Shown here: one piece after another, positions 18,473 to 21,218 of the stretch
Layout: each line of letters opens with the position of its first letter
Numbering within the stretch: the first letter of the stretch is position 1
Virus record (IMG/VR): IMGVR_UViG_3300008050_000394
Span: 1-21,218 of that record
Reading direction: 5' to 3' (one strand)
From: a virus
DNA: 21,218 nucleotides
The notes under the pieces: model-generated
What the model saw: the letters and a program-made list of their open reading frames with translations, nothing else
Told to the model about the DNA's origin: nothing
Databases searched by the model: none
Program-made: the position numbers and the translations under genes

Positions 18473-20038
18473 TTAGTAACCAGTGTACACATCTTGCCCG
18501 TGGTCGGCGTGAAGTTCTACTGTTTCGTTGTATTCGTCTTCTTCAAGTTCGTAATCAGTCTGAGGCTCTACCATTTCATCAAGCATCAAGCCCAACCAGC
18601 CTAAAGCATCGAATTGATCCTTATAGGCGTGTTTCGGATAACGCAACACTTCTTCAAGGAAATCAGCCGACCACTCAGCTTCCATGTCCACATAGACCTT
18701 GCCCGCCCTAGCACGGGCTTGCATGGAACGAGAACGTAAAGACTTGTCCTTTGACGGAACTGCCGTGTTCAAGGGGAGATACTGCTGCCTCTCCTCCATC
18801 ATCTGATAGAGAAAGGCTCCCAATGACCGAGCGATGTTTTCTTCTTCGACCTGGATTAACTGTGGCGAGTAACGAGTGTCAACAGAGAATAACTCCTCGC
18901 ATATCTCCAGCCCGTCAATCCTCTGGCGGCGAACGTCAACGATGCACAAATCACCGTTCTCAGTCAAACCACCCGTCATAACAACGGTATAAGCCGAAGT
19001 CTTCTTCTCCGAGATAGCCATGTCAGTTGAGACATAATACGTCATCCTCAACTTCTTCATTTCTTCAGTCATCGGCAGGAAGTCAGCCTTCCTGTAGTAC
19101 GCCGTAGACTCGTCAATCGGGTCGTTCAGGTATTCCTGACCGTACAAGTCAACACGACCCCGTTCAGCGTATTTGTTCCTCTCCCGTACCAGCCAATCCT
19201 TCGGACGGTGTTCTTCCCATAAAAGATTACTAAAGTCCTCGTTGTGCGCCCTATACTTGACCGCCAACCAAGACCTGTTCAAATTCTTCGAGTATGTCTT
19301 TAACGGAAGGTGTACAGTCTCCTCCGCCTTCTCAGGGGGCATACAGCCCTCTAGGAACGAGTCGTAACCGATAATCGTGCCTACACCACGGATAATGCCG
19401 CCTGAACCCAAAATAGGGGTCACAGCGCCCAGAAACCACGACATAAACTTGAATCGCCGCGCCTCACTGAGAACCAAGTCCTCATCTTCCATATCATCAA
19501 AGACCACCGCATCAGGTCGCTTACGCTGCCATTTCAGGCCACGCATACGCTGATTAGCACCTTTACAGATAATTCGGAACGTATGACCGTCCTTTAACTC
19601 GACTATTAACTCGGATTCCTTGTCTTTCAAAAACCTAGAAACACCAAAAGCCTCACGCAAATCATCATTATCAGCCAGTTCAGCACGAATATCCGCTAAA
19701 AACGCATTCGCCAGGGACTCATTCGACCCCAAAAGCAGGATATGTCGGTTAAATCTGAATAACAGGATGAATAGAACGTAAGCAAAGGTAATCGCCGTGG
19801 ACTTAGCAAAGCCCCGAGGAGCCGCTAAAGCTACCTGGTCGGCTTCTGACAGGCATAACGCCCACATTTCCATGTGCAAATACGGTATAGGCTTGGGCTT
19901 GTCGTAACGAGCCGCCAAGAACGTAGCCGAAAAACCAAATAACTGCTTTGCCTTAGACCACGATTCCTCTGTTATACCAGGTATCTTACCTTCCATTCCG
20001 CATTTCTCTATCTCTTGCCCCACCACTACAGGATACAC
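18473..20038 (-). CDS. terL: Terminase large subunit
   Basis: 521 residues as drawn. ATPase motifs: deviant Walker A APRGFAKST (73-81) and Walker B DAVVFDDMED (176-185), with an AGSNES-like coupling segment LLGSNES (102-108). Nuclease motifs: Asp in VSTDMA (339), acidic VEEEN (397-401) and KDQFDALGWL with Asp474 and Asp477. Together these make the packaging motor that cuts concatemers and pumps DNA through the portal. The drawn start is a GTG at 20038, only 12 nt after the tRNA and without a ribosome site; the ATG at 19996 would give 507 residues and is equally possible, with no strong site either. The acidic C-terminal tail may bind the portal. No small terminase subunit was recognised in the window. 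Confidence 0.95.
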   Translation of the reverse strand: MYPVVVGQEIEKCGMEGKIPGITEESWSKAKQLFGFSATFLAARYDKPKPIPYLHMEMWALCLSEADQVALAAPRGFAKSTAITFAYVLFILLFRFNRHILLLGSNESLANAFLADIRAELADNDDLREAFGVSRFLKDKESELIVELKDGHTFRIICKGANQRMRGLKWQRKRPDAVVFDDMEDEDLVLSEARRFKFMSWFLGAVTPILGSGGIIRGVGTIIGYDSFLEGCMPPEKAEETVHLPLKTYSKNLNRSWLAVKYRAHNEDFSNLLWEEHRPKDWLVRERNKYAERGRVDLYGQEYLNDPIDESTAYYRKADFLPMTEEMKKLRMTYYVSTDMAISEKKTSAYTVVMTGGLTENGDLCIVDVRRQRIDGLEICEELFSVDTRYSPQLIQVEEENIARSLGAFLYQMMEERQQYLPLNTAVPSKDKSLRSRSMQARARAGKVYVDMEAEWSADFLEEVLRYPKHAYKDQFDALGWLGLMLDEMVEPQTDYELEEDEYNETVELHADHGQDVYTGY

Positions 20039-20050
20039 TTAAATAATGGG

Positions 20051-20122
20051 CTGGAAAGGCAGGACTCGAACCTGCGACATTCTGATTAACAGTCAGACGT
20101 TCTACCACTGAACTACTCTCCA
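20051..20122 (-). tRNA. tRNA-Asn (anticodon GTT)
   Basis: The minus strand folds into a full cloverleaf of 72 nt: acceptor TGGAGAG with CTTTCCA (one G-T pair), TA linker, D stem GTTC/GAAC, anticodon stem TCTGA/TCAGA with loop CTGTTAA, variable loop ATGTC, T stem GCAGG/CCTGC with loop TTCGAGT, discriminator G. The anticodon GTT is at 20090-20088. The sequence continues CCCA, so CCA is not exactly encoded. The core resembles proteobacterial tRNA-Asn. It lies between the 53-residue gene and terminase, in the same direction, so it must be cut out of the late transcript. Confidence 0.95.
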
Positions 20123-20177
20123 AGTCCCCTCTAACGCTCTCACAGCCCCGTAGAGCCGATTTCTCTAACTTTTGGTA

Positions 20178-20339
20178 CTAGGGGTGAGGGTCAGACTCAG
20201 GACGCTGTATAACGCCACCACGACCCGTCTTACGATTGGGATGCTTGTACTTACGACCCTGCTTGTCAACGTAATTATCAGCCTGATCCGGCTTGGAACA
20301 CCCCTCACCCTTCCTATACTCATATTTCTTGTCGCCCAT
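20178..20339 (-). CDS. Small basic protein, first gene of the late transcript
   Basis: 53 residues, too short for many gene callers. The ATG at 20339 has a textbook site (AAGGAG, 6 nt). It begins MGDKKYEYRKGEGCSKPDQA and continues with a basic YVDKQGRKYKHPNRKTGRGG segment and a proline-rich end. More than a third of the residues are charged, with a single Cys; no known fold was recognised. It follows the extended -10 promoter and palindrome at 20391-20436 and precedes the tRNA and terminase. The size and charge would suit a nucleic-acid-binding or regulatory protein, but the small terminase subunit is normally longer and helical, so that assignment is not made. Confidence 0.7.
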   Translation of the reverse strand: MGDKKYEYRKGEGCSKPDQADNYVDKQGRKYKHPNRKTGRGGVIQRPESDPHP

Positions 20340-20390
20340 TAGGGACTCCTTAAATTGTCAAAAACGTCAGATTTTTCGCGCCGCCAAAAT

Positions 20391-20408
20391 TTCTATATAC
20401 ATATAGAA
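20391..20408. promoter_or_regulatory. 18-bp operator-like palindrome in late leader
   Basis: TTCTATAT-AC-ATATAGAA is a perfect inverted repeat with 8-bp arms around a 2-base centre. It lies between the -10 box (20433-20428) and the start of the 53-residue gene, about 13-30 nt after the expected transcription start. That is the usual place for a repressor or activator site blocking late transcription. Being A/T-rich, it is unlikely to be a terminator. Confidence 0.55.
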
Positions 20409-20427
20409 CAACACAATCCATAACTAT

Positions 20428-20436
20428 ATTATACCA
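20428..20436 (-). promoter_or_regulatory. Extended -10 promoter for the late operon
   Basis: Minus-strand TGGTATAAT is a perfect extended -10 element (TG-n-TATAAT). No good -35 hexamer lies 16-18 bases upstream, which agrees with an extended -10 promoter or one needing an activator. It is the first promoter facing the leftward late genes. Confidence 0.6.
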
Positions 20437-20555
20437 CACTGAGAAAAGTCACCATTTCTCTTTTTTAACGACTTCTGGAAAGTGGGATATATATATAATC
20501 TTGTTTGCAGAATTTGCCCCTCCCCCGCCTGGTATTACTGTAATGGAATTCATTA

Positions 20556-20604
20556 TGTACCATGCAGCTGCATGTACTGTACCATGTAGCCGCATGTACT
20601 GTAC
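20556..20604. repeat. 22-bp tandem repeat with TGTAC borders
   Basis: Two adjacent units (20556-20577 and 20578-20599) match at 20 of 22 positions, and a third TGTAC begins at 20600. The units read TGTACCATG(C/T)AGC(T/C)GCATGTAC. Unit 1 contains the perfect 14-bp palindrome CATGCAGCTGCATG (20561-20574). The unit junctions create GTACTGTAC. Confidence 0.9.
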
Positions 20605-20753
20605 AAGGCTCAGGGTATGTACTGATACCAACGGTTACAGCGGGTACTGTACAACTTTTGGCTGTTTGGGCGTTGGGATCATGCTATTCTGGCCTGTATC
20701 ATGCTGGTATACTGTATGGATAAACAGTACCTGGTGTATCAGCGTACTAGTAC
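20557..20753. repeat. Cluster of eleven GTAC palindromes
   Basis: GTAC occurs at 20557, 20574, 20579, 20596, 20601, 20619, 20644, 20649, 20727, 20744 and 20750. Three pairs form GTAC-T-GTAC (20574, 20596, 20644) and one forms GTAC-TA-GTAC (20744-20753). Less than one would be expected in 200 bases of random sequence. The half-site spacing suggests binding sites for a dimeric regulator or replication protein. Confidence 0.8.
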
Positions 20754-20908
20754 ACTACTACATGCGCAGGGTTTATACCCTAAGGCAGCTATACCCCAAA
20801 ATAATATCAACTAATCCGGCATACCCTGCCCTTAGCATCTACCAAGTTAAGCCAATGTAGGGCAATTCAGGCAATATCAAATTAAATCAATATATCTGGT
20901 ATATACCC

Positions 20909-20935
20909 TTGTAATGTGGTGTAGTTTTCTATACT
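20909..20935 (+). promoter_or_regulatory. Possible promoter for the rightward gene
   Basis: Plus-strand TTGTAA (20909-20914) and TATACT (20930-20935) are separated by 15 bases, which is short. A start near 20942 would give a leader of about 40 nt. Other -10-like sequences nearby make the exact promoter uncertain. Confidence 0.3.
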
Positions 20936-20982
20936 CTCTATCTATCCCCTATCTTATGGGGCATTTATTGAGGTAATACGAT

Positions 20983-21218
20983 ATGCAAGCAATAACCAGT
21001 AAATACTTAGGCGCTACCCTTCATCGCGGGTCGCGGTTCAAGGCCACAACAGCCGGAGGTCAGTCTGTTACTGTGCCTTATGACTACGAACTAAGCACAA
21101 CAGAGAATCATAAGGCCGTAGCTCAACAGCTACTAACTAAGCTTGGCTGGAAGTGTGGCATGGTGGGCGGCACACAATCTAATGCGGGCAAGGGTGAATA
21201 CGGGCGCATGGTGTGGGT
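20983..21218 (+). CDS. Conserved small hypothetical protein, cut by window edge
   Basis: The frame is open from ATG at 20983 to the right edge (78 codons plus 2 bases), with GAGGT 8 nt before the start. The protein begins MQAITSKYLGATLHRGSRFK, then ATTAGGQSVTVPYDYELS, TENHKAVAQQLLTKLGWKC, and ends at the edge in a GKGEYGRMVW segment. I recognise the pattern YLG-x-T...GSR-x-KA...SVTVPYDY-x-L...NH-x-x-A...LGW from short proteins of phages, plasmids and bacterial genomes, usually 75-90 residues and without known function. The gene is therefore probably nearly complete. It is the only supported plus-strand gene here and opens the rightward arm, where early or replication genes would be expected. 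Confidence 0.8.
   Translation, partial: MQAITSKYLGATLHRGSRFKATTAGGQSVTVPYDYELSTTENHKAVAQQLLTKLGWKCGMVGGTQSNAGKGEYGRMVW

Follow-up and report, generated by a model that had tools for sequence, protein, structure and literature searches.

A TACTGTA dyad array with an SOS-box-like site between the diverging early and late genes of a tailed phage

The window analyzed here is a 21,218-bp virus record in which late genes run leftward and a single rightward gene is truncated at the right end. The leftward late module contains the gene for the terminase large subunit, TerL, and continues beyond it with connector and structural genes. The rightward gene, of which the 5' 78 codons are present, belongs to a family whose relatives are found among the early genes of T7-like phages. 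Between the start of a 53-aa open reading frame (ORF) at 20339 and the rightward ATG at 20983 lies a 640-bp gap, and in this gap sits the array of short repeats that is the subject of this work (Table 1). With leftward late genes on one side and a rightward early gene on the other, the array does occupy a divergent control region, as the original prediction had it. AT-rich DNA flanks the array on both sides (20400–20500 and 20860–20940). The window has a tRNA-Asn gene, whereas a tRNA scan of six related loci detected none.

Table 1. Features in and around the divergent gap, in window coordinates
Feature	Position	Strand	Basis or remark
Terminase large subunit TerL (phrog_38)	18473..20038	-	family match
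tRNA-Asn(GTT)	20047..20123	-	between the 53-aa ORF and TerL
53-aa leftward ORF	20178..20339	-	without family match
Putative late promoter, extended -10 TGG-TATAAT facing TerL	20428..20436	-	read from sequence
Conserved G-rich element, GGGGGAGGGGCAAATTCTG...~20 nt...CCCACTTTCC	20467..20530	-	comparison of relatives
Dyad copy 1, TTACTGTAA, core at 20536	20535..20543	+	repeat analysis
22-bp tandem unit 1, TGTACCATGCAGCTGCATGTAC, with the perfect palindrome CATGCAGCTGCATG inside it	20556..20577	+	repeat analysis
GTAC-rich array, 11 GTAC	20557..20753	.	tetramer count
Dyad copy 2, GTACTGTAC	20574..20582	+	repeat analysis
22-bp tandem unit 2, TGTACCATGTAGCCGCATGTAC, 91% identical to unit 1	20578..20599	+	repeat analysis
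Dyad copy 3, GTACTGTAC	20596..20604	+	repeat analysis
Degenerate copy, GTACTGATAC	20619..20628	+	read from sequence
Dyad copy 4, GTACTGTAC	20644..20652	+	repeat analysis
Putative early promoter, extended -10-like TGG-TATACT (TGGTATACT)	20705..20713	+	read from sequence
LexA/SOS-box-like site TACTGTATGGATAAACAGTA, CTG-N10-CAG	20710..20729	.	17/20, E. coli consensus
GTACTAGTAC palindrome, GTAC-TA-GTAC	20744..20753	.	tetramer count
Second motif TATACCC and relatives AGGGTTTATACCCT, TATACCCC, ATACCCT, TATATACCCT	20769..20909	.	interval from array to early gene
Early gene, 5' 78 codons (phrog_3199)	20983..21216	+	family match

A DNA-binding protein had been expected to the right, and neither family nor structure searches recognized a DNA-binding family or fold in the phrog_3199 protein; its predicted structure (pLDDT 64, a low-confidence model built on three sequences) has no match in the PDB. 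No repressor gene adjoins the candidate operators, whose neighbors are the 53-aa ORF, tRNA-Asn and TerL to the left and phrog_3199 to the right, and no lysogeny genes were seen in the 21-kb window.

The array was first recognized by its GTAC tetramers, which start at 20557, 20574, 20579, 20596, 20601, 20619, 20644, 20649, 20727, 20744 and 20750. This density was rightly described as far above chance: the maximum in other 197-bp stretches of the window is three (mean 0.58 per 197 bp), and 400 sequences simulated with a third-order Markov model gave a mean maximum per 197 bp of 4.0 and none above 6. No other of the 256 tetramers is as strongly clustered locally in the window as GTAC. Its total of 73 is not raised (shuffles, 64.8 ± 8.5), and the excess is therefore purely local; since GTAC is not dense elsewhere, the array stands. 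The positions also bear out the arrangement described for it, with GTAC-T-GTAC three times (dyad copies 2 to 4) and GTAC-TA-GTAC once.

GTAC itself is a by-product of another conserved word. What is repeated is a TACTGTA dyad, present as five exact cores, all on the plus strand, over 183 bp (20536, 20575, 20597, 20645 and 20710), with a degenerate variant, TACTGATA, at 20620. Start-to-start steps, the variant included, are 39, 22, 23, 25 and 65 bp. In five of five copies the bases flanking the core are complementary (T..A once, G..C three times, A..T once), which would happen about once in 1000 by chance. This makes the unit a 9-bp dyad, N-TACTGTA-N', centered on one base, the kind of site that a small homodimer would be expected to bind. 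The proposal of sites for a dimeric protein thus survives in the dyads, which suit a dimer, while the GTAC half-site with a fixed gap of one or two bases gives way to TACTGTA units mostly 22–25 bp apart. The array also holds the three or more similar dyads in a divergent region that would be looked for in a lambda-like multi-operator switch.

Two further accounts of the array can be weighed on the repeats themselves. In the first, a 22-bp unit was recently duplicated in tandem, the palindromes arose by chance, and the array as such has no function. The two 22-bp units are 91% alike, and besides the window the array is known from one identical contig only. This account is nonetheless very unlikely, as the isolated copies at 20536, 20645 and 20710, outside the tandem block, keep both the core and the symmetric flanks, and the SOS-box-like site is left over by it. 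The second would make the array an element controlled by GTAC methylation, comparable to the GATC cluster in oriC of E. coli, to which 11 palindromic GTAC in 197 bp are numerically similar. It can be given almost no credence: the 21-kb window holds no methyltransferase, GTAC is not avoided elsewhere in it, and the conserved unit is TACTGTA, with the non-GTAC copies TTACTGTAA and ATACTGTAT.

Readings of the array as coding DNA or as an RNA element were set aside. A 119-aa ORF (20501–20860) spans the array and is cysteine rich, with a TTG start and no family match. Rfam finds only the tRNA, and there is no comparative support for a fold. The fold of a 211-nt RNA is more stable than those of shuffles (z -3.0), as expected from the palindromes, and that of a 111-nt DNA strand is not (z -1.3).

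The rightmost TACTGTA copy forms the left half of TACTGTATGGATAAACAGTA, a site that resembles a LexA-binding SOS box. It is a CTG-N10-CAG palindrome close in sequence to TACTGTATATATATACAGTA and matches 17 of 20 positions of the E. coli-type consensus, which may not be the LexA specificity of the host. The next best match in the 21-kb window reaches 14/20, and no second site within 20340–20983 reaches 15/20. The four left copies have no CAG half at the N10 distance and are therefore not LexA sites. Among some 60 regulator consensuses compared with the intergenic region, LexA gave the best match and shuffles never scored above 14; the matches to these consensuses serve as leads. The array had been said to match no described element, which now needs correcting for 20710–20729, in part an E. 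coli-type LexA/SOS box. The extended -10 of the putative early promoter overlaps the SOS box; it has no good -35, and promoter matches are in no excess over shuffles. Close by, the 13-mer TATCATGCTGGTA (~20697–20709) recurs in the related locus L005 (~903–915), on opposite strands relative to TerL, a coincidence with about a 1% probability by chance. A TrpR operator at 20744 (15/18 to the consensus) was rejected as one of the ~60 tried and as absent in relatives. Cyanobacterial and Gram-positive LexA spacings (GTAC-N4-GTWC and GAAC-N4-GTTC) were likewise discarded, none being present in the control regions.

TerL searches brought together 80 viral loci and a further 34 from genome assemblies. 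The same GTAC array occurs in only one of these, the contig L034, whose L004 stretch is 100% identical over 8,743 bp and which probably represents the same population as the window. It is absent from the nearest other relatives, L005, L006 and L007 (TerL 57–60% identical), and L005, L045–L047 and L051, the closest relatives, have neither the GTAC array nor the SOS box. In L006 (3–230), the TerL frame opens with an apparent intein end (...GDGVVMHN / STAITFAY) at the nucleotide-binding motif.

A G-rich element next to the array is shared far more widely. Its general form on the late strand is GGGG(N)GGGGCAAA...~25 nt...CCC(C)(T)TTC, and it precedes TerL in relatives whose TerL identity is as low as ~43%. 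A weaker GGGGG-AAAA form occurs in many more relatives, and the element can also be seen in a cultured Alcaligenes phage, vB_Af_QDWS535 (OK172329). Seven strong matches, these being the rows of the motif model itself, and additional weaker matches are almost all located upstream of TerL on the late strand; in L047 the element is followed directly by an ORF that occupies the TerS position and has a weak HTH match. Contig ends in the metagenome assemblies cluster just outside it, five of 13 lying within 120 bp (p ~8e-4). The element is thus conserved upstream of terminase genes and looks like a packaging site, a role that we infer; the GTAC array, known only from the identical contig, is not conserved with it.

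The proximity of the two raises the possibility that the dyads are TerS sites, a cosB- or pac-like terminase-binding array belonging to a packaging signal at the G-rich element. Only ~5 bp separate the first dyad copy from the element, outside which the contig ends cluster, and ~27 bp separate the main array from it. Repeats also accompany the element in MW202796, where TTATATAAGACATA repeats stand directly beside it with 23 bp between the last two, and in the Alcaligenes phage, where ACATGGGGACAG repeats 21 bp apart are found near it. Significant phage-specific direct repeats are present in nine of 25 loci, five of the nine (the window included) having them at 21–24 bp. This reading is nevertheless unlikely. 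L045–L047 have no significant repeats beside the element even though a TerS-position gene adjoins it, no TerS-like gene separates the element from TerL in the window, the SOS dyad is found without change beside different TerL families, and the element is no more than a putative packaging site. In L124, from a Pseudomonadota assembly, a direct repeat (GAACCGTACAGTAT / GAACCGTTCAGTAT) lies ~80–130 bp upstream of its element, and one copy has a TACAGTA in common with the dyad of the window.

About 25 relatives have a comparable control region, and in 25 loci the 500 bp next to the G-rich element, toward the early genes, were scanned for regulator boxes. DnaA boxes number 17 (shuffle mean 1.2), Fur-type boxes five (0.30) and LexA-type boxes four (0.26), the last in the window, L094 (twice) and L114; none of 200 shuffles reached any of these counts. 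One of 300 random control palindromes also reached four, and the LexA enrichment alone is therefore weaker than that of DnaA. In an unbiased 9-mer count of the control regions the words shared by most loci were those of Fur and DnaA boxes (AATGAGAAT in eight loci, TGTGGATAA in six), and an unbiased dyad count returned the LexA-type ACTGT-N8-ACAGT in the window, L094 and the cultured Alcaligenes phage. In the Alcaligenes phage this candidate SOS dyad is ~45 bp upstream of the G-rich element. The enriched boxes and locus-specific repeats together point to a regulatory, possibly replicative, hot spot in which the repeats vary by phage. Fur-box-like palindromes (GAGAATGATTCTCATT or AATGAGAATCATTCGCAT) occur in L011 (~18214), L059, L076, L087, L101, L121 and L124, and also in L165–L167, L213 and L038, near the G-rich element or SOS boxes and upstream of the terminase. 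A further palindrome, GTTAGT-N4-ACTAAC, in L114, L082, L076, L121 and L101, is ~21 times denser in control regions than elsewhere.

The DnaA boxes bear on whether the direct repeats are iterons of a replication origin, bound by a phage initiator that would open the adjoining AT-rich stretch. Boxes cluster in L114 (990–1188), L087 (3898–3929), L076 (3668–3687), L073 (3362–3404) and L082 (3754–3944), 150–400 bp from the G-rich element, and these clusters are likely the replication origins of the five phages. The dyads of the window, direct repeats at about two helical turns with AT-rich DNA on either flank, would suit an origin in the corresponding interval, and the 22-bp repeats have p = 0.015 against shuffles. 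The window region, however, has no TTWTNCACA DnaA box, the closest being TTATCCATA, with one mismatch, within the SOS box; DnaA boxes are mostly absent in the closest relatives too. No initiator gene is present in the 21-kb window, and one dyad copy overlaps both promoter-like sequence and the SOS box, which is more typical of an operator. Iterons are therefore a possible but rather improbable reading. A multi-operator switch and iterons were the two functions first proposed, and both are viable. Iterons, terminase sites and operators could also coexist within 300 bp.

SOS boxes beside terminase genes are found well outside the relatives of the window. A blind pattern of two abutting SOS boxes at an 18-bp step, whose junction CAGTACTG itself generates GTAC, was found in 68 IMG/VR contigs, compared with four for one scrambled pattern; the 68 include contigs closely related to each other and so stand for fewer than 68 independent events. 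The pairs lie between diverging ORFs in 33 of 42 classifiable contigs, and 0.46–3.4 kb upstream of TerL in all 40 contigs with a detectable TerL. The TerLs belong to different families while the box stays constant, which suggests that a host reader fits better than a phage reader. Diverse phages carry such pairs upstream of the terminase (L160–L221, L017, L038 and others), and in L183 an array of ~4 SOS boxes runs directly into GGGGGAGGGG. A scan for SOS boxes within 30 bp of GGGGGAGGGG gave 40 matches against none for a scrambled control; it is not used as evidence because several matches are dinI-type SOS genes and the G-run may be a ribosome-binding site. Pairs of GTACTGTAC occur in 33 IMG/VR contigs, mostly in unrelated contexts, one family of which (L017/L035/L037/L038/L040/L041) consists of abutting SOS boxes upstream of the terminase.

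The reading that we favor, while holding it at somewhat less than an even chance, is that the array is a multi-operator control region for early and late genes, read in part by host LexA and in part by a dimeric protein. The repeated N-TACTGTA-N' dyads, on one strand and mostly at 22–25 bp steps, would be bound by a dimer, which at the copies other than the SOS box would probably be phage encoded, from a gene outside the 21-kb fragment. The rightmost copy, extended to a full SOS box over the rightward early promoter, would be occupied by host LexA, and given this overlap LexA could hold early transcription down until it is cleaved. From the sequence we infer that proteins bind, that LexA represses, which way the effect runs, and that the remaining copies are read by a phage protein. 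If this is right, a phage with no visible repressor times its early genes by a host stress regulator and a second factor acting on one compact array, and the virus may read the state of its host through a LexA-type docking site before committing.

A broader proposal, which we regard as doubtful though possible, is that the control region beside the packaging site serves in many unrelated, mostly uncultured tailed phages as a sensor of host state. Arrays of host LexA, Fur and DnaA sites would there take the place of a phage repressor and gate transcription or replication by the DNA damage, iron and replication status of the host, the GTAC array being one form and the abutting SOS pairs a widespread one. 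The blind pattern search placed SOS-box pairs upstream of the terminase in all 40 testable contigs, and on that ground timing gated by the host could be common in uncultured phages.

The literature searched yielded no report of SOS boxes at phage terminases or of a GTAC array, and several known systems offer partial likenesses. The cos and pac sites of phages (lambda cosB, SPP1 pac) carry terminase-binding repeats, and the repeats described here adjoin a conserved packaging-like element upstream of the terminase; they differ in that they are not conserved with the element and have no TerS-like gene adjacent. At the lambda origin, the O protein binds four iterons. Four or five short dyads at ~22-bp steps near AT-rich DNA resemble such an origin, whereas the array lies between diverging modules and not inside an initiator gene, and no initiator is seen.

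For clusters of host-regulator sites in noncoding phage DNA, the nearest precedent is the CtrA sites of alphaproteobacterial phages, which cluster in noncoding regions and are supported by EMSA and reporter data (PMC9437464). The regulator there is CtrA, whereas the present case concerns LexA-, Fur- and DnaA-type motifs and sequence statistics. Other phages that coopt LexA are reviewed in the introduction of the same paper (PMC9437464). The nearest worked precedent for SOS boxes at phage promoters with host LexA as sensor, as proposed here, is GIL01, a temperate phage of Bacillus thuringiensis, in which SOS boxes, sometimes in tandem, stand at the early and late promoters P1 and P3 (PMC6182141, PMC4551915). 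LexA and phage partners act together on the early and late promoters of GIL01 (PMC6182141). The window, by comparison, comes from a tailed phage with no lysogeny genes seen, and its one candidate E. coli-type SOS box sits inside a larger dyad array at the point where early and late genes diverge.
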